Part shown: positions 3,384 through 50,842 of the stretch, piece after piece | Position numbering within the stretch: the stretch's first letter is position 1 | How the letters are laid out: every line of letters begins with the position of its first letter | Source: Desulfovibrio sp. | Lineage (GTDB): Bacteria > Desulfobacterota > Desulfovibrionia > Desulfovibrionales > Desulfovibrionaceae | DNA length: 55,192 nt | Direction of reading: 5' to 3' | NCBI GenBank assembly: GCA_014804965.1 | Contig: JAAUYU010000039.1 | Span: 1-55,192, forward strand | Notes under the pieces: model-generated | Databases searched by the model: none | What the model was told of the DNA's origin: nothing | The model's input: only the letters and a program-made list of their open reading frames with translations | Program-made: the position numbers and the translations under genes

Positions 3384-3986
3384 CTAGTTCTTCTTTGCGT
3401 CGATGGTCTGCACGATCTTCTGGGCCATGGGCTTCACAAGGTCGCGCAGGGTGTCGAGCAGGAGATTGTCCGCCGTGGAGCCGGAGGGCAGCCCGCTGCG
3501 GCTCTGGCTCGCGTTGCAGGACTCGCTCCAGAGGCGCCCCTTGCGGTTGGCGAGCGCGCACTTGACCCGCATCTGCGAGGTGATCTCCAGCGAGGAGTTT
3601 TCCTTGAGCCACACCTCGTCCACCTGCCCGGTGACGAGATAGTCAGGATTGCCGCTGCGGGCCTGGTTCACATTCGCGGCAAAGGTCACCTGGAAGCCGC
3701 TGCGCGCGAGCTCGTCGGCAAGTGCGCGGCTGATCCACTCGGCCACGTTGCCGCTGGTGGTGAAGGCACTGCCGTCGCGGCGAACGCCGACGGAGGATGT
3801 GTCCACGCGCTTGTCCTCAAAGCTGACCACGCTCACGCTGGGCGCGTTGGGCGCGGGGAGCACCGAGGCGTCCAGCGGCGGCGGGGGGAGCAGGCGCACG
3901 GTATTGCTGGGCCCGCAGGCCGAAAGCAGGAAAACGGCCCCGAGCAGGGCAAGAAGGACGACGGGCATTGAGCGGCGGTGCTGCAT
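3384..3986 (-). CDS. YajG-like outer-membrane lipoprotein
   Basis: A 200-residue lipoprotein. The signal peptide ends in a clear lipobox, LSAC, with the acylated cysteine at about residue 24. The mature part starts with a proline-rich linker, then shows strand/helix segments (SVSVVSFEDKRVDTSSVG, ISRALADELARSGFQV, YLVTGQVDEVWLKE) that resemble the YajG or curli/flagellar-assembly lipoprotein fold, in which paired strands pack on a helix. Precise function is unknown. It is the first gene of the leftward series and is preceded by a plausible promoter at 4011-4040. A GAGG ribosome-binding sequence shortly before ATG 3986 supports this start over an internal methionine. Confidence 0.8.
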   Translation of the reverse strand: MQHRRSMPVVLLALLGAVFLLSACGPSNTVRLLPPPPLDASVLPAPNAPSVSVVSFEDKRVDTSSVGVRRDGSAFTTSGNVAEWISRALADELARSGFQVTFAANVNQARSGNPDYLVTGQVDEVWLKENSSLEITSQMRVKCALANRKGRLWSESCNASQSRSGLPSGSTADNLLLDTLRDLVKPMAQKIVQTIDAKKN

Positions 3987-6882: not shown

Positions 6883-7305
6883 TCAGCCTCGCTTGAAAAA
6901 CCGGGAAATGCCCGTCGCCCTGAAGGTCAGGAAGTTGTGCCCCAGAAAGCTCGCCACAAATGCCGTGCCGATGCCGAGGCAATGGGCAAGGGCCTTGGCC
7001 ACGGGCTCCGCCAGCGCCAAACGCCCCCGCAGCATGTCGAGCGCCACCACGGAGACCACCGTCGTCACGCCCAGGCCCAACAGGGCCACCAGCGTGAATT
7101 TCGACAGGGTTTTCGTGGTGGTCGCACCTGTGTAGGAAGAAAAGACATATTTCCTTGAAAGCGCATAGTTCACCAGCATCCCGGTAAAATACGCGGCAAC
7201 CACAGAGACCCAGAACTCACAGAACAGGTCGTAAAAGAACCTTGAGCCGAAATTGACAAGGGCGGCCACGCCGCTCGCGAGAAAGTAGAGAAAGATCCTG
7301 AGCAT
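6883..7305 (-). CDS. GtrA-family membrane protein
   Basis: A 140-residue protein with four predicted membrane helices, matching the GtrA family in size and pattern: an early FLASGVAALVNFGSRF helix, the VAAYFTGMLVNYALSRKYVF segment that is highly typical of GtrA, a third helix (LVALLGLGVTTVVSVVAL), and a fourth ending in FLGHNFLTFR before a basic tail. GtrA proteins take part in flipping lipid-linked sugars such as undecaprenyl-phosphate glucose across the inner membrane, or related polyprenol phosphates. It lies 2 bases before the FAD oxidoreductase and downstream of galE, consistent with a glycan-modification cassette. Confidence 0.9.
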   Translation of the reverse strand: MLRIFLYFLASGVAALVNFGSRFFYDLFCEFWVSVVAAYFTGMLVNYALSRKYVFSSYTGATTTKTLSKFTLVALLGLGVTTVVSVVALDMLRGRLALAEPVAKALAHCLGIGTAFVASFLGHNFLTFRATGISRFFKRG

Positions 7306-7408
7306 GGCGCAGCAATTCCCGCATGGACCTATGCGACGTCAATGTCTGGCCGACAGGGGGCGACGGGCGGCCCCGGCGCGGGACAGGCGCGAAAATTTTC
7401 GGCCCGGT

Positions 7409-8383
7409 TCACGCGTCTTTCCGGGCCGTCAGGAAATTCCAGGCATCTTCGAGCATGGTTTCCAGGTTCCTTTCCGCCTTCCAGCCGAGCACCTCCCGCG
7501 CCTTCGCCGCATCGGCGACGAGCACGGCGGGGTCGCCCGCGCGCCGTTCCATGGCGCGGGCCGGCACCTGGCGCCCGGAGATCTTTTCCACGCCCCGGAT
7601 GATCTCGCGCACCGAGGCGCCGCGCTCGGTGCCCAGGTTGAGCGCCATGCTCTCCCCGCCATCCACCAGGTGCTCCAATGCGCGGATATGCGCCCGCGCG
7701 AGATCATCCACATGGATGTAGTCCCGGATGCAGGTGCCGTCCGGCGTGGGATAGTCCGTCCCGAAGATGTCGATGGCGTCGATGCTTCCCAATGCGGCGA
7801 ACATCACCCGGGGGATGAGGTGAGTTTCGGGTTCGTGCAGCTCGCCGATCTCGCCCCGCGGGGAGCTGCCCGCGGCATTGAAGTAGCGCAGGCTCATCCA
7901 GCGCACGTCGTGGGCCGTGGCGAAGTCGGCGAGCATCCGCTCCATGAAGAGCTTGGAGGCGCCATAGGGATTGATAGGATTGGGCGGGCAGCTTTCGGCG
8001 ATGGGCACCTCCTTGGGCTCTCCGTAGACGGCGCAGGTGCCGGAAACGACGATGGCCGGGCAGCCCTCGTCGCGCATGGCCTCAAGGATGCTCAGGGTGC
8101 CCCCCACATTGTTGGAAAAATACTTCCCCGGGTCCACCACGGATTCGCCCACATAGGCGCTGGCCGCGAAATGGATAATGCCGTCCGGTTTGAACTCGCG
8201 CAGGCAGGCGCGGAAGCGCGCCGTGTCACGGATATCCCCGTGGCGGAAGGGCCCCCACCTGACGAAGCTCCGATGCCCCGTGGAGAGGTTGTCGTAGACA
8301 ACGACTTCATGCCCGGCTTCCGCCAGTGCCTTGCATACATGGCTTCCAATATAGCCGGCGCCGCCGGTGACACATATTTTCAT
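7409..8383 (-). CDS. galE: UDP-glucose 4-epimerase
   Basis: Interconverts UDP-glucose and UDP-galactose (or the N-acetyl forms). The 324-residue extended short-chain dehydrogenase has the NAD-binding GGAGYIGS at residues 7-14, HFAA near 72, the catalytic SGTCAVYG serine region near 117-124 and YGASK (Tyr and Lys) near 143-147, and a NPYGASKLFMER helix. RYFNAAGSSPRGEIGE is the substrate-binding signature of bacterial GalE. A GGAGA ribosome-binding sequence is placed properly before ATG 8383. It supplies sugar nucleotides to the neighbouring glycan genes. A 103-base gap separates it from the GtrA gene and 67 bases separate it from the AT-rich gene upstream. Confidence 0.95.
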   Translation of the reverse strand: MKICVTGGAGYIGSHVCKALAEAGHEVVVYDNLSTGHRSFVRWGPFRHGDIRDTARFRACLREFKPDGIIHFAASAYVGESVVDPGKYFSNNVGGTLSILEAMRDEGCPAIVVSGTCAVYGEPKEVPIAESCPPNPINPYGASKLFMERMLADFATAHDVRWMSLRYFNAAGSSPRGEIGELHEPETHLIPRVMFAALGSIDAIDIFGTDYPTPDGTCIRDYIHVDDLARAHIRALEHLVDGGESMALNLGTERGASVREIIRGVEKISGRQVPARAMERRAGDPAVLVADAAKAREVLGWKAERNLETMLEDAWNFLTARKDA

Positions 8384-8450
8384 ATAGATGTTCTCCTATG
8401 TTCATATTCCGCCGTCAATAAAAGCAAGCTCGGCTAGTTAAAATCTCGCC

Positions 8451-9713
8451 TCAGCCTACAGCCTTTCTTGAAGAACTATTAATATTTTTCAGGAAAATAT
8501 ACAGAATTATAAAAATCGTTATGCAATATATTCTATAGGTAAACCATCCATGTATTTGTGAATGGTTCGCAATGACCAGAGTCCAAAGAAAGGGAGTACA
8601 TCCTATAAGCAAGAGCGTCCAATATAATCTGTAATCTTTATAAAAATTTATATTTATACTTCGCAAGCCTTTCTGGAGCAGAAAGATCAGGGTGAGAACA
8701 AATAATAGAGTGATAAGTAAACTCTGGGCTGCGTCAAAAGGGGAAATCACGCACCACAAGTTATGTTTCAGCGCGAGAAAGGAGTCTACTTTCAGGTTTA
8801 GTTTTGGAACTTCACCATGAACTCTAAAGTATACAGTTTTAATCGCATCATATATAATATTTTTTTCTAATATAATCGTAGCTACCATCCATTTTGCGAG
8901 CCAAATTCCCACATAGCCAGTAGCCCATATAAAAAAAAACTGAATAATTTTCCAAGGCCTAGTGAGAATACTATATTTTTCATAATCCCAAATACAACCA
9001 ATAGCAATAAGCATACCCACTGGCAACAAAGGCGTGGTCAGAAGGTCAATAAACGATGTTGCGCCCCCCAAAAGGAATATATAGTATGAGAAATATTTGG
9101 ATTCACAAATAGGGTTATTAATGTACTTTCCCATAAAAATAAAGATAAAAAGAAAAACAAAAAAGACATAGAACATGAGGCTGAGTGAAAGACAAAATGG
9201 AACGATAAAGCTTTTTACGGCTATTACTGCAGCCAAGAACGCAAGGGAAACCTGATTACTTAAGGCCCTTGCGAGTAAAATTGCAGCAACGACAGTGCAA
9301 GCTGTGAGTAAAAAAATGTTTAGCAATCGTAATTGCGAATAATTAAATATAATCATCAATGGGCGCATTATCACACAATAGCCATGCCAGTATCGTGAAT
9401 AATGGTTCATATCAAGAGCCGCTTGCCAAGGATTTAAACTCATATCGTGTGGAACCATCTTATCAATCATGACTTTATCTATATAATTTTCGAAAGCAAA
9501 TGCTTGACACTTGTAAATATTTTCACTTACAAAAGGAAAGAGATTTAAATATTTATTCTCTTTTTCTAATATCCTTAGACTCTGTATGACATTGCCCTCG
9601 AGTTTTTGTGATTTAATACTATATACGGCAGACAGCAATACGTTAAAAACAAAAAAGAGGATGAGAAAAATATAAACATATGGCTTCACCGTACTGATTT
9701 TCGGTAACTGCAT
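8451..9713 (-). CDS. AT-rich polytopic membrane protein, GT-C-like
   Basis: A 420-residue membrane protein with about ten hydrophobic helices and a large loop after the first helix. That loop (residues about 35-115) contains PHDMSLNPWQAALDMNHYSR followed by WHGY, reminiscent of the first extracytoplasmic loop of GT-C glycosyltransferases where acidic catalytic residues sit, but no definite family was recognised. Base and codon use differ sharply from everything around it: the gene is visibly AT-rich with A/T-ending codons (many Ile, Phe, Tyr, Lys, Asn), a sign of recent transfer. A GGAGG sequence 8 bases before the ATG supports the start. It starts 14 bases after the upstream hypothetical gene and precedes galE, so a role in surface polysaccharide is likely. 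Confidence 0.75.
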   Translation of the reverse strand: MQLPKISTVKPYVYIFLILFFVFNVLLSAVYSIKSQKLEGNVIQSLRILEKENKYLNLFPFVSENIYKCQAFAFENYIDKVMIDKMVPHDMSLNPWQAALDMNHYSRYWHGYCVIMRPLMIIFNYSQLRLLNIFLLTACTVVAAILLARALSNQVSLAFLAAVIAVKSFIVPFCLSLSLMFYVFFVFLFIFIFMGKYINNPICESKYFSYYIFLLGGATSFIDLLTTPLLPVGMLIAIGCIWDYEKYSILTRPWKIIQFFFIWATGYVGIWLAKWMVATIILEKNIIYDAIKTVYFRVHGEVPKLNLKVDSFLALKHNLWCVISPFDAAQSLLITLLFVLTLIFLLQKGLRSININFYKDYRLYWTLLLIGCTPFLWTLVIANHSQIHGWFTYRIYCITIFIILYIFLKNINSSSRKAVG

Positions 9714-9727
9714 AATATATTCCTCCC

Positions 9728-10477
9728 CTAACGCTCCACGGCGAAGATATTGCGGTAGATGAGGTCCGCGTCCTGCTCGCGGACCTCAATGATGACCTGG
9801 GCGTTGACGAGGCTGTACTGCTCGGGCACGCGAGCCACCATGACAGCGCGCTTGAAGCGGCTGATGCGGAAATTGCCCACATCTTCGGGGTCAAAGGCGA
9901 GCGGGCACTTCTGGCCCGAGGCCGTGACGAGGGTGGCGGAAACCGAGCCCGCGAGGAGTTTCCGGCTGTCAGGGTTGCGCAGGTCAAGGCCGATGCGCAG
10001 GCCATTGCCGCGCAGCGCCCGGGCCTGCACATTGCCCACCTTGATGGCGCCCGTATCCACCACGGGAAATTCCTCGTGCCCCGGCCCTTCGCCCAGGGCT
10101 GAGGCCGCGGCGCCCTGCGGCGTCTCTCCAGCCGCGGAGGCCTCCTGCGGGGCTTCGCCGCCCGCACGCGCGAGACGACGGAGCAAGAGCTCGCGGCCCT
10201 GCACACCTTCCTCCCGCAGCAATTCCTCAAAATTCTGCAGGCGCTCGGCCGTGGCCTGGGCCGCCTGGGTGTCCATCTCAAAGCGCTGCATGTTGGCACG
10301 CAGGCTGGCGTTCTCCTGCCAGAGCTGCCAGCACTGCCACCCGAGGGCGACGCAGAGGAAGGGCAAACAGGCGAAAAAGGCGACGAGCGCGAAAAAAAGG
10401 CTCCGCCGCAGGCGGAAACTGCGGCGCGGGCCATTGTCGCGCATGAGGATGATGCCCAGCTGTTCGTGGTAGCGCAC
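9728..10477 (-). CDS. Membrane-anchored coiled-coil hypothetical protein
   Basis: Unknown function. The 249-residue protein has a basic cytoplasmic N-terminus, one membrane helix at about residues 28-50 (LFFALVAFFACLPFLCVALG), then a coiled coil (LWQENASLRANMQRFEMDTQ and onward to about residue 105), an Ala/Gly/Glu linker, and a C-terminal beta-rich domain from about residue 140 (VGNVQARALRGNGLRIGLDL to the end). It therefore probably exposes a globular domain to the periplasm. It begins 3 bases after the L,D-transpeptidase stop, on the same strand, suggesting joint action at the cell envelope. Confidence 0.8.
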   Translation of the reverse strand: MRYHEQLGIILMRDNGPRRSFRLRRSLFFALVAFFACLPFLCVALGWQCWQLWQENASLRANMQRFEMDTQAAQATAERLQNFEELLREEGVQGRELLLRRLARAGGEAPQEASAAGETPQGAAASALGEGPGHEEFPVVDTGAIKVGNVQARALRGNGLRIGLDLRNPDSRKLLAGSVSATLVTASGQKCPLAFDPEDVGNFRISRFKRAVMVARVPEQYSLVNAQVIIEVREQDADLIYRNIFAVER

Positions 10478-40353: not shown

Positions 40354-41376
40354 CTAGCGCGGCTCCACGCCGGGCGGGCAGGGGCGGCCGCCCCCGCACT
40401 GGGTGGTGCCCGCCTCGCCGAGCCCGGTGTCCACGGGCAGGCTCTCGTCGCGGGGCGTGTCATCCACGGGCGCGCTACGGACCGGACGCGCGGCCGCGGC
40501 GGGGCTGCGCGGCTGCTGGCTGCGCTCCACGCGCTCGCGGATGTCGCCGGGAAGGCCCCGCTGCTCGAAGAAGGGCACGCCCTGCGAACCTGCGGCGAAG
40601 ATGTGCGCCTTGTTGCGTAACAGGCGGAAGCGCAACAGCAGCATGTCCGGGCGCCAGGCGGCGAAGCCCGAGGGGGCCTGGGCGTTCTGGCTCTGGGCCA
40701 GGGCCTGCGCGATATTGAGGCCCTCGTCGAGGAGGCTGCGCATCCGCGCCACCTTCCAGACGTCGGCCTCGGTCTCGGCGAGCGGGTAGAAGGCCACGTC
40801 CACATTGCCGGAAAGGGCGTTGATGCCCTCGATGCAATAGCGGCAGGAGGGCGAGAAGAACATGCGCGTGACCGCATTCTCGCTTTCGTCGAGGATGGGC
40901 CAGACATCGGCCTGCGAGCGGGCCACGGCCCCCACATTGATGACAAAGAGCGCCGCCCAGACCCAGAGCAGGACGGAGTGGTGTCTGGTCTCGGGGCGCA
41001 TCCGGCTTTGCGGGGCAGGCACGCGGCGCAGGAGGAAATAGATGATGGCAAAGAGCGCCGCAGCCACGAGACAGCTGATACAGGGCGCGGTGAAGGCCAT
41101 GAGCAGCAAGAGGCAGATGTCGCCCGCAAGGGCGAGGCCCGCGAGGATGCGGCCCCACTCGGCCGCGCCCAGCAGGGAAAGCCCGGCGAGCGCCCCGAAG
41201 GCCGCCGTGCCGAACCACCAGAGGGAAATGCCCGCGACGGTGAAGTCCTGATACAGGGTACAGCCGGTGGTGACGCAGAAATTGACGGCATTGCCGAGTG
41301 CGCTCCACACGCAGAATGCGGTGCCGAGGAGCGCGAAAAACAGGGGGCCGGCGAGGATGGCGTGATTTTTGTTCAT
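40354..41376 (-). CDS. VKOR-like disulfide reductase/oxidase with thioredoxin-like tail
   Basis: A 340-residue membrane protein of the vitamin K epoxide reductase family. Predicted four or five helices carry Cys34 and Cys39 (NFCVTTGCTLYQ) in the periplasmic loop and the active-site CISC pair (Cys99, Cys102). A further segment after residue 165 contains FFSPSCRYC (Cys178, Cys181) as in a thioredoxin-like partner domain. The tail has two more cysteines (TQCGGGRPC). VKOR homologues pass electrons from periplasmic thiols to quinone and replace DsbB. The ATG at 41376 is preferred; a TTG at 41400 is possible. It is upstream of ppiD (147 bases), hinting at a role in periplasmic folding. Confidence 0.82.
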   Translation of the reverse strand: MNKNHAILAGPLFFALLGTAFCVWSALGNAVNFCVTTGCTLYQDFTVAGISLWWFGTAAFGALAGLSLLGAAEWGRILAGLALAGDICLLLLMAFTAPCISCLVAAALFAIIYFLLRRVPAPQSRMRPETRHHSVLLWVWAALFVINVGAVARSQADVWPILDESENAVTRMFFSPSCRYCIEGINALSGNVDVAFYPLAETEADVWKVARMRSLLDEGLNIAQALAQSQNAQAPSGFAAWRPDMLLLRFRLLRNKAHIFAAGSQGVPFFEQRGLPGDIRERVERSQQPRSPAAAARPVRSAPVDDTPRDESLPVDTGLGEAGTTQCGGGRPCPPGVEPR

Positions 41377-41772
41377 GGCAAATGCTGACGCTTTCCGCAA
41401 AGAACTGTGCTGGGCTTGCCCTCACGGGCGCAACGCAAGCGGCCCGGCCCGTGGCCGCGCCGATAGTCATCATGCCGCAAGGCTTTACGATAGAAGTTTT
41501 TGCAGTTTTCGTAAAGACGAAAAGACGGTGCGCCCCCGGCGAAACGGCGCTTCGCAACCGTTAGGGCATTTTCGCCTTCCGGCCGGGGCCAGCGCGTGGC
41601 GGGCACCCGTGTGACGGAGGAGGCGGAAGCGCCTCTTGAACTCTGGCAGGCAGGGGGCTACAAAGGAAACAGGGAATCGTTTATGATATATCCAAAAGCG
41701 CATTAGCCTCTTGAGGTAGCTTGGCGCCCGGTGGCAGGCACCGCCAAACGCCGGAAATAACGGGGAACCGCC
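41377..41772. other. 396-base gap before the large ATPase/helicase gene
   Basis: No gene supported. It contains an 8-bp inverted repeat, CTTTACGA (41483-41490) and TCGTAAAG (41509-41516) with 18 bases between. A possible -10 TATGAT (41682-41687) lies 86 bases before the ATG of the next gene, but no good -35 was found. A GGGGA near 41762 serves as a weak ribosome-binding site. GC content drops clearly in part of this interval. Confidence 0.5.
41483..41516. promoter_or_regulatory. Inverted repeat CTTTACGA/TCGTAAAG
   Basis: Perfect 8-bp arms separated by 18 bases, in an AT-rich patch about 260 bases before the sacsin-like gene. The size and spacing would suit an operator bound by a dimeric regulator or an RNA stem. 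No matching regulator gene is adjacent, so its role is open. Confidence 0.35.
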
Positions 41773-44700
41773 ATGAAAGAAGAGCAGAGGGAATATTTTT
41801 CGCGCCTTACCGCCAAAAGGACGAAGTCCGCGGAAACGCTCCATGACGATGTTGCCTTTCACGGAGTGAAGGACGGCGCCGTGGGAAAATACAGGGAACA
41901 GGCGCACTTTCTTTATGAACTCCTGCAAAACGCCGATGACGCCGGCGCAAGCGAAACGCGTTTTGAACTGGAGGAGGACAGGCTGCTTTTTTTCCACAAC
42001 GGCACGCGTCACTTCAACATCACTGATCCCGAGTCCGAAAATGAGGACCTTGCCAAAGGGCAAATCGGCGACGTCAACGCCATCTGTACCATTGGCGCTT
42101 CGGCCAAGAAGGACGAGGAAAACACCATTGGAAAGTTCGGCGTCGGCTTCAAGGCGGTATTTCAATACACAACGCGTCCGGAAATTTATGATTCTGAATT
42201 TTCTTTTTGTATTGAAAACTTTCTTGTCCCCCGTGTAATAGGGCATGACCATGGGTTACGCCGCCCCGAGGAAACGCTCTTCATCTTCCCCTTTGACCAT
42301 CCTGACCGTGAGGCGAAAGCGGCATTCACGGATATTTCCCAAAAGTTGCGCAGCCTGACCTTTCCCCTTCTGTTCTTGAACAATCTTCAAAGCCTGCATT
42401 TCAGAATCAAGGATAAGCGCGGCGCCTATTCCAAAAAAATCCTTGAACGGGAAGTGGTGGGCGACTGTATCTTTGAAGATACCGAGCTCCTATATGAATA
42501 TGAGGGAAAAAGGGAAACGCGCACGCTTTTTTGCTACTCACAAAAATTCAACGATACGTTACGCTACACCGTCGGCTTCTTCCATGCGGACGGGAAATTA
42601 TACGCCAAGGCCCACCCGGCGTTCTGCTATTTCCCCACCAAGGAGACAACGAACCTCAACTTCATACTGCACGCGCCCTTCAGGCTCACGGACAGCCGGG
42701 AAGGCATCCTCGCGGGCAGCGGGCACAACAAGGACCTGATCCGCCGGCTGGCGGCGCTGGCGGCGGCCGCCCTCCCCCACATCAGGGATTTGGGGCTCAG
42801 GCGCGGGTGCCGGTACATTGATGACGACATTTTCACCATCCTTCCCTATAAGGCGCCCGGTGAGGACAACAGGGACAGCATCTCCTTCCGGCCATTCTAT
42901 GAAAAGATCCAGGAGGCCTTCGCCTCCGGCAAGGACGCCATCATTCCCGCGCAAGATGGCTATGCCGGCCCCGCGGACGCCATCTGGGCTGCCGTGCCGG
43001 AACTCCCCAGGGTGTTTTCCAACGAGCAGTTGCGGGAGCTCAGCGGCATAGCCACCGCCCGCTGGGTATTCTGCAGCCTCGGACGCGACGATATCCAGGA
43101 CCGGGACAAGGAGCTCGCCGCGCATATCGGCGGGATGATCCGCGGTTTTCTCGGTGAAGACGCCATTCTCAAGGGCAGGAGAAAAGGCCAGGAGTTGCCG
43201 GTTCCGGGCATCACCGCGGAGTTCATGGAAAGGCAGTGCCTTGACTGGTGGCATGCCTTTTACGCGTGGCTGGCTGACCCGCGCGGGAAAAACCGGCGGG
43301 AGCTCGCCAAAAGGGCGCCCGTGCTCATCGACGAGCAGGGAAAGGCCTGCATCCCCTTTGATGATGGCGATCATCCGCAAATCTTCCTCTCGGGCGACCC
43401 GGGAGACATGTGCCGGCGCGTCCTCCAACAGCTCCTCGACAGGCAGGAGACCGCCAGGTTTCTGCAGGACTTCGGGCTCGGCGAGGCAAAACCGTTCGAC
43501 AGGATGCTCCTGAGCATCCTCCCGGCCTACAGAGAGGGCAAAAGCCGGGATTTCAAGAATGATTTTCTCCTGTTCTTCGATTGGTACAAGGGGCCAAAAA
43601 CGGACGCTGAAAGGGAAGAGGGGTTTGAAGCTCTCCGCGACTGTCCTTTTTTATTGGCCCAGGATGATGGCAACCTCTACAGGCCTCTGGATTTATACTA
43701 CCCAAAAAGACATCTGAAAGACTGGTTCAGCTGCTCTGGACACGCCAAATATATTGATCTTTCCGTATATCTCACCCTTATCGGTCCTGGCGAGAAAAAA
43801 CTCCTGGTAAAATTTCTTGGGGAATTACAGGTGGCCCACTATCCCCGCCTCTTGCAAAGGGACCTGTCCCGTGAACAGGCCCTGGCCTTGAAAACGGACT
43901 GGACAAAACTTGCCCACCGGCAGGATGAGCACACCTGGCGCGAATGGTATCTGGACGGCATGGATGCCCTGCTCGACATGGCCCAGACGGCCCCCGGCGC
44001 TTCACGGCTGCTGGTCGCCACCCTCCGGAAACTGCTAAAGGAGGGCACTCTACCGCACGGAGCCTCACTTGCTGGCGACGTTCCCCACCTCCTGGGCGGT
44101 GTCCATACCTATGTATACCACAAGGAAAGGACGGAATTTTTTGAAGCCAGCCAGAGTCGCAAGTTGCGCACGCTGCCATGGATGGAAAATGGCAACGGCG
44201 GATTTGTAACCCCCGCCGCCCTCGGGAGCGACGGGATAAAGAAGGTGTACAGGACTGAGCTGGCTGGCCGGTATCAGCTGTGCCGCTTTTTGGAGAGCGG
44301 ACAAAATGCGCTGGGAAGCGTCCAGGATATTCCGGCCTATGCGCAAAGGCTGGGCCTGACCCCCGAAGAAGCTCGCGTGGCCCTTGAGCGTTTTGCAGAG
44401 GCGAAAGACCGGACCGCCCCATCTTTCGATGAGATGGCTTCCGCCGCCGGGGACACTTCCCGGGAGCAAAAGGTGAAAAACCTTTTCCGGAAAGTGTACC
44501 GTGACTTAAAAACGCCCGCGAGCGCCCTCCAGACATCGCAAGCGCCGGAAAACCCGGAGGAGACCGTCCTGGACGACGAATACACCCTGCCCTCGGTAAA
44601 ACTGAAGGAAAGGATCGAGCGCCGGCAGCGGCAGGCGGAGGCGGAAATCCGGGACCTGGTCGAGGTTGGCGAGCAGTGGGACAGGGCCGCGAGGGCGCCC

Positions 44701-46542
44701 AGGTATTCGTACGAGTGGTTCAGGCTTATGATGGAGCTTGAACTGCGGGAGGAGAGGGAAACCTTGGAACAGGCCGGAAGCCTCCGGCTTAACTTCGACA
44801 AGGTCGAGCTGGAAACTCCCGGCGGCAAGACCCTTGTCCTCACACGCCCCGGCAGGCCCATCCCCGCATATCTCGAAGACCTCTCGGACATAACGCTTCT
44901 CATCCATTTTGGCGACGAGTCAAAAAGTGTCCTGCTGGAGGCCATGAGCGTCAAATCCTTCACCCTGCGCGCGAAGCTGCGCAAAAAGGCCCAGCTGGAC
45001 GGGCTGAATCTTGCCCAGGCCACTGGCGCCACGCTGGAAGTGAAGAGTCGCACCTTTCTTTTTAAAGAATTGTACGATGCGTTCATGAACTTGGGCAACG
45101 CGTCCTGCTGGGCCGACGGTCATGACCTGCACGCCCGTTTGCCGGAAAATATCGAATTCGTTTTCGGCCCACCCGGGACGGGAAAAACCACTTGGCTTGC
45201 GCGCAACGTTTTGGCTCCCAGGCTCCGGGAGGAGACGCGGCTGCGTATCTTGTGCCTTACTCCCACCAACAAGGCCGCGGATGTGCTGACCCAGAGCCTG
45301 CGGCGAGAACTCAGCCCCGAAGAAGCGGAAAAGTGCCTGTTGCGCTTTGGCACGACCAACGACGAGGATCTGGAGCAAGCCGGCATATATCGGGAAAGGA
45401 CATTCGACATACATGCACATCCGGTAAATGTAACCATCACCACCATGGCGCGCGTGCCCTATGACTACTTTCTCCTGCAAGAGGGAAAAAGGGAACCGCT
45501 CTCCGCTATGCATTGGGACTATGTGGTGATCGACGAGGCATCCATGATCCATCTCCCATGGATGGTGTATGCTCTTTACAAATTGAAGCCGAAAAAATTC
45601 ATTATCGCGGGCGACCCGTTCCAAATCCAGCCTATCGCGCGTCTTGATGACTGGAAAGATGAAAATATCTATACCCTGACGGGCCTCAAGGATTTTACTA
45701 CGCCTATCACCACCCCGCACCCCTACCCCGTCCAAAGCCTTGACACGCAATACAGGAGCGTCCCCGCCATTGGCGAGCTCGTGAGCCGGTTCACCTACGG
45801 CGGCCTTTTAAGACATCACAGGAGTGCTGAGCCGCCCCGGGAGATTCTTCTCAAGAACGGGCAGACCCTCCGGCCGCTGACGCTGATAAAATTTCCCGTA
45901 AAGGGGTATGAAAGCATCTACAAGGCAAAAAAGATGCAGGGGGGGTCCGCCTATCATATTTATTCCGCACTGTTTGTAAAAGAATTTGTTCAGGAGCTGG
46001 CGGAAAGCCTGCCGGCAAAGGAGGAGTGTACCATAGGGGTCATCAGCCCCTACAAGGTGCAGGCGAAGTTACTGGCAAGGCTGCTGGAAACGCTGGAGCT
46101 GCCCGGAAACATCAGGATTTCGGCCGATACCGTGCATAGTTTCCAGGGTGACAGTTGCGATATCATCATCGCCCTCCTCAATCCGCCCGCCTATATTTCC
46201 GGCTCTCCCCAGATGTTCCTGAACAAGCAGAACATCCTCAACGTCTCCATCAGCAGGGCGCGGAATTTCCTCATCATCCTCATGCCCGATGACGCGACAA
46301 AAAATGTGGAGATGCTAGAAAAAGTCAAGAAAATTGAGGAACTTTGTGCCAAAATCGGCTGTATCACCCACTCCGCGCAGGACCTTGAGGAGAGGATGCT
46401 CGGCAAGCGCACTTGGCTTGAGGAGAACTCCTTTAGCACAAGCCACCAGTCGGTCAACGTCTATACCCGGCCGGAAAAATATTATGAAGTCAGGAGCGAA
46501 GACCTCAGCATTGATGTCCAGATAGTGCCCAAGGGTGAATGA
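41773..46542 (+). CDS. Sacsin-like GHKL ATPase fused to SF1 helicase
   Basis: A 1589-residue protein. Residues about 35-330 form a GHKL ATPase like sacsin/Hsp90: N-box ELLQNADDAGA (Glu49, Asn53, Asp56), an HNG motif at 75-77 in place of DNG, and IGKFGVGFK at 119-127. About 330-900 is undefined helical sequence; about 900-1000 is rich in charged coiled coil. The C-terminal third is an UPF1/DNA2-type SF1 helicase: Walker A GPPGTGKTT (1132-1140), DEAS (1254-1257), AGDPFQIQPIA, LDTQYRS, ISADTVHSFQGD and SISRARNF near 1490. Such ATPase/helicase fusions occur among phage-defence genes, but function here is inferred. Its GC content is visibly lower than its neighbours. The 3' end faces the next gene. 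Confidence 0.85.
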   Translation: MKEEQREYFSRLTAKRTKSAETLHDDVAFHGVKDGAVGKYREQAHFLYELLQNADDAGASETRFELEEDRLLFFHNGTRHFNITDPESENEDLAKGQIGDVNAICTIGASAKKDEENTIGKFGVGFKAVFQYTTRPEIYDSEFSFCIENFLVPRVIGHDHGLRRPEETLFIFPFDHPDREAKAAFTDISQKLRSLTFPLLFLNNLQSLHFRIKDKRGAYSKKILEREVVGDCIFEDTELLYEYEGKRETRTLFCYSQKFNDTLRYTVGFFHADGKLYAKAHPAFCYFPTKETTNLNFILHAPFRLTDSREGILAGSGHNKDLIRRLAALAAAALPHIRDLGLRRGCRYIDDDIFTILPYKAPGEDNRDSISFRPFYEKIQEAFASGKDAIIPAQDGYAGPADAIWAAVPELPRVFSNEQLRELSGIATARWVFCSLGRDDIQDRDKELAAHIGGMIRGFLGEDAILKGRRKGQELPVPGITAEFMERQCLDWWHAFYAWLADPRGKNRRELAKRAPVLIDEQGKACIPFDDGDHPQIFLSGDPGDMCRRVLQQLLDRQETARFLQDFGLGEAKPFDRMLLSILPAYREGKSRDFKNDFLLFFDWYKGPKTDAEREEGFEALRDCPFLLAQDDGNLYRPLDLYYPKRHLKDWFSCSGHAKYIDLSVYLTLIGPGEKKLLVKFLGELQVAHYPRLLQRDLSREQALALKTDWTKLAHRQDEHTWREWYLDGMDALLDMAQTAPGASRLLVATLRKLLKEGTLPHGASLAGDVPHLLGGVHTYVYHKERTEFFEASQSRKLRTLPWMENGNGGFVTPAALGSDGIKKVYRTELAGRYQLCRFLESGQNALGSVQDIPAYAQRLGLTPEEARVALERFAEAKDRTAPSFDEMASAAGDTSREQKVKNLFRKVYRDLKTPASALQTSQAPENPEETVLDDEYTLPSVKLKERIERRQRQAEAEIRDLVEVGEQWDRAARAPRYSYEWFRLMMELELREERETLEQAGSLRLNFDKVELETPGGKTLVLTRPGRPIPAYLEDLSDITLLIHFGDESKSVLLEAMSVKSFTLRAKLRKKAQLDGLNLAQATGATLEVKSRTFLFKELYDAFMNLGNASCWADGHDLHARLPENIEFVFGPPGTGKTTWLARNVLAPRLREETRLRILCLTPTNKAADVLTQSLRRELSPEEAEKCLLRFGTTNDEDLEQAGIYRERTFDIHAHPVNVTITTMARVPYDYFLLQEGKREPLSAMHWDYVVIDEASMIHLPWMVYALYKLKPKKFIIAGDPFQIQPIARLDDWKDENIYTLTGLKDFTTPITTPHPYPVQSLDTQYRSVPAIGELVSRFTYGGLLRHHRSAEPPREILLKNGQTLRPLTLIKFPVKGYESIYKAKKMQGGSAYHIYSALFVKEFVQELAESLPAKEECTIGVISPYKVQAKLLARLLETLELPGNIRISADTVHSFQGDSCDIIIALLNPPAYISGSPQMFLNKQNILNVSISRARNFLIILMPDDATKNVEMLEKVKKIEELCAKIGCITHSAQDLEERMLGKRTWLEENSFSTSHQSVNVYTRPEKYYEVRSEDLSIDVQIVPKGE

Positions 46543-46614
46543 TGGCCCGCAGCCTCAAGATTGGCGCCCCATGTAAAAGGGAACGCCGGGGCTCCCCATT
46601 TTTGCAGGCTGGCG

Positions 46615-46655
46615 CCCCGGCATGTCTGCCCACTCCGGGGGCAGACATGCCGGGG
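46615..46655. terminator. 17-bp perfect hairpin between convergent genes
   Basis: Arms CCCCGGCATGTCTGCCC (46615-46631) and GGGCAGACATGCCGGGG (46639-46655) pair perfectly around a 7-base loop. It lies in the 128-base gap between two convergent stop codons, so it is suited to stop transcription from both sides. There is no long U-run on either side, so it may work with Rho or also serve as a recognition site. Confidence 0.7.
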
Positions 46656-46670
46656 GCCGGGGGATGGCCT

Positions 46671-49600
46671 TTAAAGCCCTTGCTTAAGGCCCTTCAAAAG
46701 CTGGGCGATTCGCTGGGTGTCCAGGCCGCCTGTGAGGGGGTCATCCATGGTGATGATCAGGTTCCCCGCTTCTTCGCGAATGCCATGCTTTGCATAAAGT
46801 TCCTTCTTCGCCTGCCAGTGTTTCGCATACTTTTCATTGCCCAGCATGCCGAGGTGTTCCCAATAAATCGGCCCGTCCCTCCCCATCAGGGTGAAATCGG
46901 GCAATGCCTTGCCGTCTTCCCATTCCAGGGCTTTTTCATAGACGGCGCTGAGGCCCGCCCCAAGGAGCATATTATAGATAACAAGCTCCGATTTTGACCG
47001 CAGCCTCAGGCCGTCGGTGGCCCGGTGAACAAGGCGCTCGTCATGCCAAGCCTTGCTCTGCTCCTCCGCGAAAAATATATCCCCAAAAAGATTGGTAAGC
47101 CGGTTTTGCAACTCGGAATTTTTGGCGTATTCCAGAATCTCGGCAGCGTCCCTGTTGGTAATGATGATGATCTTGTTCCGTTGCCGCGTCAGGGCGGTGT
47201 AAATCATTTCACGACTCAGGAACGGCGATGGCCTTTCGCTTTCGTTCATAAGAACAAGGATGGTGTAGTCAAAGCCGGACCCTTGGGCCTTGTGGATGGT
47301 CAGGGCATAGGCAAGCTCCAGTATGTCTTCGGATTCATCGCTGCCAGCGGCGCTCTTGTACTTGTAGATATAATCTTTCTGGCTGGCAAAACGTACCCCG
47401 TGATGCGTCGTTCTCCACTTATTACCGTATAGCTTGCCAATAATGCCGATTTCCCCGTTGGCGGTCAGGCCCAGGCAATCTTCCAGTTTTTTGCCGGGGA
47501 GCGGTTCAATGGTGCCATTGGGCCGGTTTGCGTTCCAGCTTTCATTACGGGTGCAGATCACCTTTTCCCCATAGCATATGCCGTCCCGGCCCAAGGGGGT
47601 ACGGGTGCCACATTTCCACGTGGACGAGCCGCGTCGCGTTTGCTTGCCGTAGGCTTCATGCACCATGGCGTTGAGGGCCTTGCTGCCGTGATGCTTCCGG
47701 TTGCACCATGGGGTGAGGATCTGCCACCTTTCGACCTTGCCGGGGTCGTTAAAATTCATCCGGTCGCCATGGAGCGTGCCGCCGAGGGATTGGTCAAAGC
47801 GGATAAGCTCGTCGCCGGCGAGGCCGAGCCCGTCGAAGATTTCGCCCATGGCCTCCTTGACCTTGTCCTCGACCAACTCCACACCCTCGCAAGACAGGAC
47901 CTTGAAGGTCTCATCACCCTCCTGCATGATGCGGGCGATGACCTCCCTGTCATTGGCAAAGGGGCAGCCCTCGGCCTTGAACAGGTTCCCCAGGCCCGCG
48001 CCGAAGCCCTCCTGACGGTTGTTGACCTGGAGACAGCTGAAATGCGGCTGGCCTTCCTCCGCCTCCAACTTCCTGCACAGCTCGAAGAATGGCTTGCCGG
48101 CCCCGATGGGGGGTAGCTGATTGGGATCACCAGCAAAAATAATCCTGTCGGCAAAAGCGAGACTCTGCAGGAGAGCCCCCATCATCTCTTCCGTAAGCAT
48201 GGAACTTTCGTCAATAATTACGGTACGGGGAATGGTCTTGTCGGGCGCGCGCCCTGAAAGATAATACCTGTACGAGCGCTCGTCACACCTGTGTTGCCCC
48301 AGCAGATACGCAAAAACGGTTTTGGCCTCATGCACGATGCCATCATCCTGGAGGGCCGAACTCAAGACCACGCGCGCCTTGCCCGTAGGCGTCAGGATGA
48401 GGATGCGACCGGCCTGGATGTCCCGATTATGGCAAAGGGCCCTGAGCGCGCTGGTCTTACCGGTGCCCGCGCCTCCAGTGAGCACGGAAAGGGGCGAGGC
48501 CGCCATCTTTTGAACCGCGTCTTTCTTTTCCGCACGGCTCTTCCGCTCCCTTTCCGTATCTTTGGCCGGGAACATGGCCGCGAGAACGGCGTCCCAGTCC
48601 TCCTTCACCGTGAGGTTCTTGCGGGCCAAGTGATCTTCCACGGCAGCGCGGATGCTCACGTCGATTTCTTCCATCCGGCTCAACTTGCAAATTGTCCTGC
48701 TTTCCTCGCCCTCAGGGCTGCGCAGCGTGACCGTGCTGCTGAAAAAAAGCGGCGCAAAAAAGTCCTTGTGGCGAGTAAGCGCTCTCCCGTATATCTTGGC
48801 ATCCCCGATGCGCACTCCTGGCAAGTCTGTGGTGCGGGTGTTGCAAAACTCGAGTACCTTTTCCTGCGGCATGAAGGTATTGCCCTTTTGTGCCTCCTCC
48901 TCGAGATATTGTGTGACGAGCGCCCGGATGCGTTTTTTATCATTCGCGTCTTCAAGCGGCCTGTCATCCTCCCCGAACCACTCGCTCGCGTAAGGCTCTG
49001 GAGGGAAAAGGGCCAGGTCCACCATGTTAAGGCCAATGACATGGTCCGGATCGACAAGACGCGTCTGCTCATAGAGAATATACGGATTTTTCAGGACCTC
49101 CTTCGCGAGTATGGCTTCGTCCCAGCCAAGCAAGGGGCACACACGCTTGAGCATCGCATATCCATGGCCTTTGCCCTCGCTGCCGGGCAGAAGCAGGTCC
49201 ATCTGGGAGGGGTTCAGGTTCATGCGGGCGAGCAGCTTAACAAAGTCGCCGTTATCCTCTAGCATCCCCAGGATGTTCTCCAGATCCCCGCTCGTAGTAC
49301 GTCCCACAAGCGGTTTCAAATCATCAGGCAGGAAGGCCCGCAGGCTTTTTTTGTTTTCCAGGACCTCACCCAGATGCTCCCAGAGTTCGGGCCCTGGAAA
49401 TTTCTGGCGCAGCACTTCCGCCACATCATACGCAAAGGGCAAGCCCAGGGCGCCGAGCACCGCACCCAAGCCCGGGAAGGGCCCCCGCTGCCGCCAAGCC
49501 CTGTCCAGCTGCTTTGTGCACCATTCCACCTGGGCTTCCCACGAGGTGCCGGGGAGTGCCCGGAAACCGAGCTCCATGTAGGTTTTCAGGAGTTCCCGGG

Positions 49601-50468
49601 CGCGATTGAGGGTAATGATGAGGGCGTCGGGCGAAATATGCTCGCAGCCGTAGGAAAACTCTTGGCGGTATTCATCCGGGGCGAATAAAAGCAGGTCATC
49701 GATAGTGGTGTCCGGGTTTTCACGGACATAGGCCTCGATTTGATGAAAGGGGATCATGAAACCGTCAGGGTTGGTCCCGGAAAGGGCGTGGGTGATTGTC
49801 CTTTCCCACGTCCAGGCCTTAAACTTTTCCTTGCCATCGGGTTTTTCGGCATAGTCGTATTCTTTAAGTTCACCCAGTTTTTGGATGGTGCTCATGGAAA
49901 TGATGACCCGCTTCCCGGACTCACTGAAGGGGACTGCCTTGGCATAGGCCACCACGAGCGACTCGCCCTCCACCACATCCCGCCAGAACTGCTTGAGGAG
50001 CTTTTCCTGGTTGATACCGTTGGAGATGAAGCTGGACTGAAAGTCTTTCAACTCTATATCTTCATCATAGCCGGTGCAGTGGATCTGGTGGACCGCCAGT
50101 CTGGCGTAGCGCGGTTTTAAAAACCAGCCGTAGGGAATACCAATGAAGGAGTTGGGCGGGACGTCGACCTTGGTGTCCAAAAGGTGACTGTATTTTTTAC
50201 TTAATGTGACGTAGGGGTGCTTTGCCATAAAACAATGATCTCGAGGGGAAAGAAAAAATCCGGATTCCCGCAGGCACGGCGGAACGGCCTCGTTGTCCCA
50301 CACCTCGCTGCCTTCACCGCGATGCGCCTCGCACCAGTTTTGCTGCTGTCGCTTGCTGGCAATGTTCTTCAAGATCTTGCATGCGCCGTTATGCTGGGGA
50401 TCCTTGCAGACCTTGCCGTTCCAGCCGTTGTCATGCCAAGGGACGCGCACAGAAATATTTCTGGGCAT
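46671..50468 (-). CDS. RecD-like SF1 helicase with nuclease-like C-terminus
   Basis: A 1265-residue protein. The N-terminus begins MPRNISVRVPWHDNGWNG and holds four cysteines (21, 30, 46, 65) that could bind zinc or an Fe-S cluster. About 100-600 is undefined sequence. The helicase core follows: Walker A GGAGTGKT (665-672), IIDESSM near 753, FAGDPNQLPPIGAG near 775, and LTIHKAQGSGFDY near 1075, as in RecD/TraA-type 5'-3' helicases. Residues 1156-1230 resemble a restriction-endonuclease fold: Glu1161 in SKSELVIY, Asp1191 in LPDFTL, Glu1204 in YWEHLG, then KKELY. The start at 50468 follows GGGAGGA by 6 bases. It is divergent from the kinase gene and convergent with the ATPase/helicase. Function is inferred. 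Confidence 0.85.
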   Translation of the reverse strand: MPRNISVRVPWHDNGWNGKVCKDPQHNGACKILKNIASKRQQQNWCEAHRGEGSEVWDNEAVPPCLRESGFFLSPRDHCFMAKHPYVTLSKKYSHLLDTKVDVPPNSFIGIPYGWFLKPRYARLAVHQIHCTGYDEDIELKDFQSSFISNGINQEKLLKQFWRDVVEGESLVVAYAKAVPFSESGKRVIISMSTIQKLGELKEYDYAEKPDGKEKFKAWTWERTITHALSGTNPDGFMIPFHQIEAYVRENPDTTIDDLLLFAPDEYRQEFSYGCEHISPDALIITLNRARELLKTYMELGFRALPGTSWEAQVEWCTKQLDRAWRQRGPFPGLGAVLGALGLPFAYDVAEVLRQKFPGPELWEHLGEVLENKKSLRAFLPDDLKPLVGRTTSGDLENILGMLEDNGDFVKLLARMNLNPSQMDLLLPGSEGKGHGYAMLKRVCPLLGWDEAILAKEVLKNPYILYEQTRLVDPDHVIGLNMVDLALFPPEPYASEWFGEDDRPLEDANDKKRIRALVTQYLEEEAQKGNTFMPQEKVLEFCNTRTTDLPGVRIGDAKIYGRALTRHKDFFAPLFFSSTVTLRSPEGEESRTICKLSRMEEIDVSIRAAVEDHLARKNLTVKEDWDAVLAAMFPAKDTERERKSRAEKKDAVQKMAASPLSVLTGGAGTGKTSALRALCHNRDIQAGRILILTPTGKARVVLSSALQDDGIVHEAKTVFAYLLGQHRCDERSYRYYLSGRAPDKTIPRTVIIDESSMLTEEMMGALLQSLAFADRIIFAGDPNQLPPIGAGKPFFELCRKLEAEEGQPHFSCLQVNNRQEGFGAGLGNLFKAEGCPFANDREVIARIMQEGDETFKVLSCEGVELVEDKVKEAMGEIFDGLGLAGDELIRFDQSLGGTLHGDRMNFNDPGKVERWQILTPWCNRKHHGSKALNAMVHEAYGKQTRRGSSTWKCGTRTPLGRDGICYGEKVICTRNESWNANRPNGTIEPLPGKKLEDCLGLTANGEIGIIGKLYGNKWRTTHHGVRFASQKDYIYKYKSAAGSDESEDILELAYALTIHKAQGSGFDYTILVLMNESERPSPFLSREMIYTALTRQRNKIIIITNRDAAEILEYAKNSELQNRLTNLFGDIFFAEEQSKAWHDERLVHRATDGLRLRSKSELVIYNMLLGAGLSAVYEKALEWEDGKALPDFTLMGRDGPIYWEHLGMLGNEKYAKHWQAKKELYAKHGIREEAGNLIITMDDPLTGGLDTQRIAQLLKGLKQGL

Positions 50469-50616
50469 TTCTTCCTCCCTATGCTGCCTCTTTTTTTGGC
50501 AAAAAGGATCTGTACTGTTTGCCAGCGCGGGCGCGTGGCGGAGCAACAATGCCCTCCGGGGGGAGTTGGCAGGCCCAATCCTGGGGCAGACAGGGCCCAT
50601 CAGCGGCATCCAACAT

Positions 50617-50645
50617 ACTTTAGAAGATTTCCTCAGTTGCGGCAA
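50617..50645 (-). promoter_or_regulatory. Possible promoter of RecD-like gene
   Basis: On the minus strand TTGCCG (50645-50640), 17-base spacer, TAAAGT (50622-50617). The predicted start would leave a leader of about 140 bases. It is the best match I found in the region but not a strong one. Confidence 0.4.
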
Positions 50646-50738
50646 GCCAGCGGGTCTGTTCCACGCGGCGCACCGTTTCCTGTGTCGGCGCTCAAGCCCC
50701 GGGTAAGCATGTGCCCAAGGGGAACGGCGGGCGGGGCA

Positions 50739-50767
50739 TTGGCAAAGATGCCGCCTTCTCTTATACT
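50739..50767 (+). promoter_or_regulatory. Sigma70-like promoter of hybrid kinase
   Basis: TTGGCA (50739-50744), 17-base spacer, TATACT (50762-50767). Five of six matches in each box. Transcription would begin near 50774, about 70 bases before the GTG start. Confidence 0.65.
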
Positions 50768-50842
50768 CGGGCCACTGTATCGCCGGGCGCCAGCTCTCTC
50801 GCCTTTCCGCGCCCCCTACCGCAACGATAAAGGCTGTACGCT

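Follow-up and report, generated by a model that had tools for sequence, protein, structure and literature searches.

Of the described defence systems closest to the locus considered here, Gabija is defined by the OLD-type ATPase/TOPRIM nuclease GajA beside GajB, and Mokosh by a superfamily 1 (SF1) helicase with a phospholipase-D domain, either fused or as a second gene. Sacsin-type ATPases are, to our knowledge, large proteins whose role in bacterial defence is little understood. Passages of PMC3710099 treat sacsin with HEPN domains, and DISARM-related YprA systems are treated in PMC12458937, in which neither HSP90 nor RecD is mentioned. PDC is used for 'phage defence candidate' in a section of PMC11514479, and one such single-gene candidate in PADLOC-DB is PDC-S68. 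The present analysis concerns a 55,192-nucleotide stretch of DNA from Desulfovibrio sp. (contig JAAUYU010000039.1, hereafter the window), in which two large genes, called A and B, stand tail to tail within an insert. Gene A encodes a sacsin/HSP90-type ATPase with a C-terminal helicase and gene B a RecD2-like helicase with a predicted C-terminal nuclease fold. The insert is best read as an exchangeable-partner, DNA-targeting defence module, the defence role and mechanism of which we infer. Literature searches on sacsin, helicase and anti-phage revealed no paper on such a pair and PDC-S68 was named in no paper found, subscription journals lying mostly outside both searches; no laboratory test of any PDC-S68 was found in the literature. 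A term search of PMC12839542 gave no hits and the helicase passages of PMC7641849 hold no sacsin-helicase/RecD2 pair of this kind.

The window lies on contig 39 of a draft assembly of 2.54 Mb in 39 contigs that is 93% complete. Its host is Desulfovibrio-like: another genome of the genus carries an EVE protein identical to that of Desulfovibrio sp. ZJ369, and one relative of B is named Avidesulfovibrio. The features on which the argument rests are as follows.

41519..50729, no strand: inserted segment of about 9.2 kb (blastn of the window against empty sites)
41773..46542, + strand: gene A, 1589 aa, sacsin/HSP90-type GHKL ATPase with C-terminal SF1 helicase (Pfam, PADLOC, NCBIfam, ATPase and helicase motif strings)
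41884..42213, + strand: A residues 38-147, sacsin N-terminal ATP-binding region (Pfam SACS 5.4e-15; NCBIfam P_loop_sacsin 1.2e-22; PDB sacsin 5v44-5v47)
45139..46281, + strand: A residues 1123-1503, SF1 helicase core, UPF1/SEN1/SMUBP-2/DNA2-like (Pfam AAA_11, AAA_12, AAA_19; PDB SEN1, SMUBP-2, UPF1, DNA2)
46615..46655, no strand: perfect 17-bp hairpin between the stop codons, without a T-run, a possible two-way transcription barrier (stem search, RNA fold, terminator scan)
46671..50468, - strand: gene B, 1265 aa, RecD2-like helicase with C-terminal nuclease-type fold, PDC-S68 member (PADLOC PDLC05065)
46674..47033, - strand: B residues 1146-1265, predicted PD-(D/E)xK-type nuclease fold with motifs SKSE, PDF and YWEHLG
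47148..48533, - strand: B residues 646-1107, SF1 RecD2-like helicase core (Pfam AAA_30, AAA_19, UvrD_C_2; PDB RecD2 3e1s, 4e-32)
49569..50468, - strand: B residues 1-300, conserved N-terminal region with VPWHDNGW...C..P..N..C and SLVxxYAK...RVI (alignment of 17 B proteins)

The first-pass annotation described two large genes pointing at each other, and both reading frames are indeed open and convergent, with A on the forward and B on the reverse strand. The start ATG of B lies at 50468 and is preceded by GGGAGGAAGAA. The interval 41377-50842 reaches from the start codon of one neighbouring gene to that of the other and does not mark the ends of A and B. A PpiD-like gene and a sensor kinase named near the insert are backed by Pfam; the left neighbour (40354-41376, - strand) had also been labelled VKOR, a name that was rejected in the absence of a Pfam match at trusted score.

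That the segment was acquired as a clean insert is apparent from relatives in which the site is empty. The left neighbour was matched in 76 of 79 genus genomes (own included) and the kinase in 32 of the 79 at E 1e-100, many of the latter being paralogues of 30-55% identity. Both flanking genes lay on one contig at high identity in four genomes, G793, G803, G792 and G037 (left gene 88-96%, kinase 84-94%), and in all four they stand divergently side by side, the matched parts about 335-387 bp apart, which leaves neither A nor B at that site. The first three were examined at the site, and G037 was also among 100 relatives searched whole, where it lacked A. Two further genomes were not readable at this position: G004 (kinase 83%) gave no left-gene match, and in G032 (kinase 68%) the flanking genes were on different contigs. 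Homology of the window to G793 ends at 41518, after 201 bp at 94.5%, and begins again at 50730, with 173 bp at 94.2%, which places the insert at about 41519-50729. It replaces about 130 bp of intergenic DNA, and as that ancestral stretch is variable the junctions are precise to some tens of bases.

Composition agrees with this. GC is 0.562 in gene A and about 0.565 in gene B against 0.693 and 0.636 in the flanking genes, as had been claimed from the sequence, and the contrast extends to GC at third codon positions (0.696 and 0.706 against 0.894 and 0.887). From the empty sites, 4/4 where readable, and the foreign composition it is clear that the insert was gained horizontally, and among the open reading frames (ORFs) scanned it holds only A and B. 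Ten further mechanical ORFs in or at the edges of the insert, part of the short ORFs there, had no Pfam match at 0.01, in keeping with the earlier remark that no transposase is visible. Transposon ends were also sought and rejected: the best local edge-repeat scores, 23 direct and 23 inverted, were reached by 42/300 and 24/300 shuffles, and no repeat rose above them. At default thresholds no tRNA, tmRNA or Rfam element was detected in the window.

Comparison of gene A with known systems revealed partial likenesses. The motif strings of both the ATPase and the helicase are present, and the N-terminus resembles that of Tiamat (TmtA), the best model scoring 136 bits over A residues 3-424. However, the TmtA model was matched at positions 37-446 of 1486 only, and A carries in addition a C-terminal SF1 helicase and has a neighbour gene; it is thus not a whole-length match to TmtA. 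The helicase core of A is similar to that of Mokosh (MkoA/MkoC; 128 bits, best stretch residues 1247-1504), but no phospholipase-D domain was listed in A or B (Pfam, E 0.1) and the front part of A is sacsin-type, so the pair falls outside Mokosh. With Gabija the locus shares a helicase and nuclease logic, and both A and B are weakly similar to GajB models in the helicase. It differs in that the nuclease is fused to the helicase in B, that the neighbour is a sacsin ATPase-helicase and that no OLD/TOPRIM partner was seen; neither OLD nor TOPRIM domains were found by Pfam in A or B, and GajA was absent from the best 25 of 29 PADLOC families for A and from the 22 for B, which leaves the pair outside Gabija as well.

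Gene B, in which the catalytic motif strings are present, was matched by the PADLOC model PDLC05065 (PDC-S68) at 1039.5 bits over profile positions 6-1216 of 1221. This end-to-end match makes it a member of PDC-S68, and two other PDC-S68 models were matched across nearly their full length. The difference is that PDC-S68 is listed as one gene, whereas B here stands with a sacsin-helicase gene. The RecD2/RecD helicases share a core with B (TIGR01448, 177 bits; PDB 3e1s, 4e-32), but B has a long extra N-terminal part and the C-terminal nuclease-type fold, and its 177 bits fall far below the NCBIfam cut-off of 500 for the RecD2 equivalog, which places it outside RecD2 proper. B is best described as a RecD2-like helicase with a predicted C-terminal PD-(D/E)xK-type nuclease domain. 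The N-terminal region is part of a 636-residue structure model with a mean pLDDT (predicted local distance difference test) of 86. One relative of B, from the genus of the window (L099, 6953-12829, - strand), is extended at its C-terminus by about 700 aa that have no Pfam match.

Relatives of both genes were found in a variety of defence settings (loci and genomes are given L and G numbers). A adjoins type III mod/res genes in at least 4/14 A loci (L202, L204, L113, L109), and in L054 (1677-16467, + strand) precedes a DrmD-like piece and a further helicase of defence type; neighbours of the remaining A loci were scanned in part only. B was found within a type I restriction-modification (RM) operon that also carries a bSEFIR gene, where it stands between the genes for specificity and restriction (L210, 5463-18337, - strand), beside a prokaryotic Argonaute (pAgo) gene after a type I RM operon (L211, 3478-15054, - strand) and upstream of a 1211-aa type I restriction subunit (L301, 1-7310, + strand; PADLOC REase_I 2e-41). 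In L111 a SIR2-pAgo gene lies close to B, in L118 B adjoins a type IIG enzyme, and in L107 it is flanked by DrmD-like genes, with a type IIG enzyme nearby. The likeness to DISARM (DrmD) and to type I/III restriction loci is thus one of neighbourhood; the insert differs in that no methyltransferase, specificity or Drm gene was found among its scanned ORFs. From these varied neighbours both families appear to be modules that change partners. The earlier proposal of an acquired defence system accordingly holds for acquisition and for defence-type content, B being a PDC-S68 member and the relatives adjoining RM, DISARM-like and pAgo genes, and function is taken up below.

The pairing itself recurs elsewhere. 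A scan of genome contigs with A queries gave at least 28 loci, and among the matches listed L061 (a Prevotella metagenome-assembled genome, MAG) and L073 (a Bacteroides MAG, in which A runs off the contig end) have a B that immediately precedes A, the two genes sharing the 4 bp ATGA. A third operon of B followed by A with the ATGA overlap was found in L206, a contig from a viral collection. In L112, a record called bacteriophage, an open B is followed by a remnant of about the first 60 residues of A (3547-3828, + strand) and then by other genes; in its first 300 residues this B shares 91% identity with the B of L061. In L103 (G481, from the phylum of the window) the order is DrmD, a sacsin-type gene without helicase domain, then B. 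In L116, a Sphingomonas plasmid, the B is frame-broken, and after it come a sacsin-type gene, one gene that matched nothing and one that is DrmD-like, and in L109, a Hymenobacter plasmid, B and A are 8.6 kb apart in one cluster with a type III-type methyltransferase and res genes. The nearest relatives of the window pair show the same identity, 78% for A (over 68% of its length) and 78% for B, as if the two had been carried together. The earlier expectation that the genes would recur together was therefore borne out, and close relatives do not always carry both at this locus; the convergent orientation was not shared, since the three operons, the L112 remnant, L103 and L116 are all co-directional and, among the loci read, the window alone is convergent (1/7 counting the window, with L109 left out as not adjacent).

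Broken copies of B were seen on two plasmids. That of L116 (11929-15721, + strand) is in three open pieces with annotated IS3 transposases on both sides, and that of L119 (11713-17657, + strand) is interrupted by a transposase-like ORF.

To put numbers on the pairing, A loci from the A queries were counted where sacsin, helicase and some flank were present (L054, L055, L056, L057, L060, L061, L073, L113, L109, L202, L203, L204, L206 and L294; 14 in all). Cut loci (L058, L059, L288, L289 and the like), L205 as a near-copy of L202 and sacsin-only or helicase-only matches were dropped, as was the fragmentary B locus L106; flanks are short in L104, L105, L111 and L112. B is present at four of the 14 A loci, and a sacsin-type gene or remnant at four of the 17 B-query loci in the stretch read (L103, L109, L112, L116), against none of 92 other loci (1.37 Mb; Fisher p 0.0004). 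The first sacsin profile included the sacsin regions of L103, L109 and L116 as seeds, and these three therefore match it by construction. A profile built from 60 database-only proteins was matched at 3/17 B loci (L103, L109, L112) and again at 0/92 controls; L116 was unmatched by it, the sacsin call there coming from Pfam SACS and TmtA.

Phylogenetic trees with 27 A rows and 34 B rows, many of them with unread neighbours, placed the window pair well apart from the Bacteroidota-type pairs of L061, L073 and L206. This separation suggests that the pairing arose more than once or was lost often. In the A tree the label 'pair' needs two changes, the placement of L103 and L109 being unsure on account of long branches.

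Searches of other samples were also carried out. A search of 100 other relatives listed no A of full length, whereas B is present at full length in G032 (44%) and, as detected with a profile, in G089 (L107). A phylum sample of 394 other genomes gave the A profile in G104, G224 and G298, all three matches covering the sacsin side alone, and B in G219, G389 and G481; the A search overlooked the sacsin-type gene that adjoins B in G481 (A profile 5e-87, positions 39-919). In the class of G487 (a Clostridia MAG) B was found in 0/236, a search that lacked a positive control and is uninformative in its emptiness. Because both families are rare, whole-genome samples are weak evidence either way. A first B scan of viral contigs gave no whole-protein match among the best 80 of 89 loci, scans with Bacteroidota-type A and B returned L206 again and one new B locus without A (L301), and a motif scan for further pairs gave none. 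Among plasmids no record matched the A of L061 over 80% of its length, and the B of L061 recovered the same eight records with full-length B as the earlier search; among phages there were two records with full-length B and one partial A-type match.

The reading that we narrowly favour is of a horizontally acquired, stand-alone, two-protein DNA-targeting defence module, with A as regulator or loader and B as helicase-nuclease. The pair would be best called a variant of known helicase-nuclease defence modules, what is surprising being that the sacsin partner recurs and that the two genes stand here bare and convergent. We infer the defence role, the division of labour, a physical partnership, the trigger, the promoters and the role of the hairpin. 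On meeting an infection cue, the sacsin/GHKL ATPase of A might change shape on ATP, and its UPF1/DNA2-like helicase could remodel nucleic acid and hand it to B. The RecD2-type motor of B would then unwind DNA and track along it, and the PD-(D/E)xK-type domain would cut it. Transcription of each gene would start in the region upstream of it, at one edge of the insert, and run towards the other gene, and the hairpin between the stops would keep the two transcripts apart. The significance of the locus is that sacsin-type genes recur beside one helicase-nuclease family in unrelated settings, that a single-gene candidate, PDC-S68, gains a possible partner, and that an insert of two genes with nothing else found is a small system in which the role of a sacsin ATPase could be tested.

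The hairpin was reported in the first-pass annotation as perfect over 17 bp and proved to be exact, with 17/17 pairs between arms at 46615-46631 and 46639-46655 and a loop of 7. It is the sole perfect stem of at least 12 bp with a 3-12 nt loop in the whole window; 20 Markov-1 random windows together contained just two such stems, both of 12 bp. Its RNA fold is -58.7 kcal/mol against -41.1 (sd 3.4) for shuffles, or 5.2 sd better. A canonical intrinsic terminator was ruled out, as there is no T-run after the hairpin on either strand and it is absent from the terminator-like sites in a scan of the window, so that it is a strong stem and not a textbook terminator.

The most serious rival, which we regard as possible though rather less than probable, is that A and B are two separate defence genes that share one site by defence-island logic, as modular RM-type accessories, their tail-to-tail arrangement being a coincidence. 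The type III and DrmD neighbours of A, and the type I RM, type IIG, DrmD and pAgo neighbours of B, are what such accessories would have. Several results weigh against a two-gene module, the first two of which also favour separate genes. The window pair is on opposite strands, unlike the co-directional pairs elsewhere. Most loci of either gene lack the other: 10 of the 14 helicase-bearing A loci are without B in the stretch read, B is also absent at 37 further loci where the A match was sacsin-only, helicase-only, cut or a duplicate, and 14 of 18 B loci (the 18th being L301) are without a sacsin-type gene. The control loci were mostly viral contigs (80 of 92). B relatives at 51-59% identity have no A relative of matching identity among those listed, the next A being at 43%. 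Outside the chosen genomes, A and B were listed together in 0/394 of the phylum sample (A in three, B in three) and, in the order of G491, A was found in four, B in two and both in none of 294 others. The B tree needs at least five changes of the 'pair' label, a number as low in 147/500 shuffles. Against separate genes stand the tight translational overlaps of B and A in three loci and one remnant, the separate joining of B to sacsin-type genes, the equal 78% distance of the nearest relatives and the single clean insert containing just A and B.

Another reading, which is unlikely, makes B a modification-reading restriction enzyme, its N-terminus a diverged EVE/PUA-like pocket for modified bases followed by the RecD2 motor and nuclease, with A as an ATP-dependent switch that was joined to such nucleases several times; this would be a sacsin-gated class with or without a methyltransferase. 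A Pfam scan of 17 B members for an EVE domain in the N-terminus was negative. Against an EVE profile the N-terminus gave a probability of 0.1% and a score of 13.0, and an unrelated A profile scored 15.0 against the same profile, which is narrow, being built from 120 close bacterial EVE proteins; this control lowers the odds of the reading slightly. The structure match to the EVE fold was weak and fell in a part of the model that was barely tested.

It is very unlikely that the insert is what survives of a larger modification-dependent locus, of RM or DISARM-like type, that lost its methyltransferase part or left it behind. Relatives of both genes do adjoin methyltransferases and DrmD/res helicases, but no methyltransferase or other helicase piece was seen among the insert ORFs scanned, both genes are open, and three scanned genes downstream in L206 had no defence match (the upstream side being cut at 290 bp). 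Least probable of all is that these are transferred housekeeping genes for DNA repair or RNA processing and not for defence, for although PDB names place RecD2, UPF1/SEN1/DNA2 and sacsin domains in repair, RNA decay and chaperones as well, presence is patchy, the sites are empty in sister species, B matches PDC-S68 end to end and the neighbours of relatives are defence genes.

Elsewhere in the window two ORFs, at 7304-8437 (+ strand) and 8451-9713 (- strand), neither with a Pfam match at 1e-5, lie at a second stretch of foreign composition, positions 8001-10000, where GC is 0.43-0.46 compared with 0.64-0.70 on either side.

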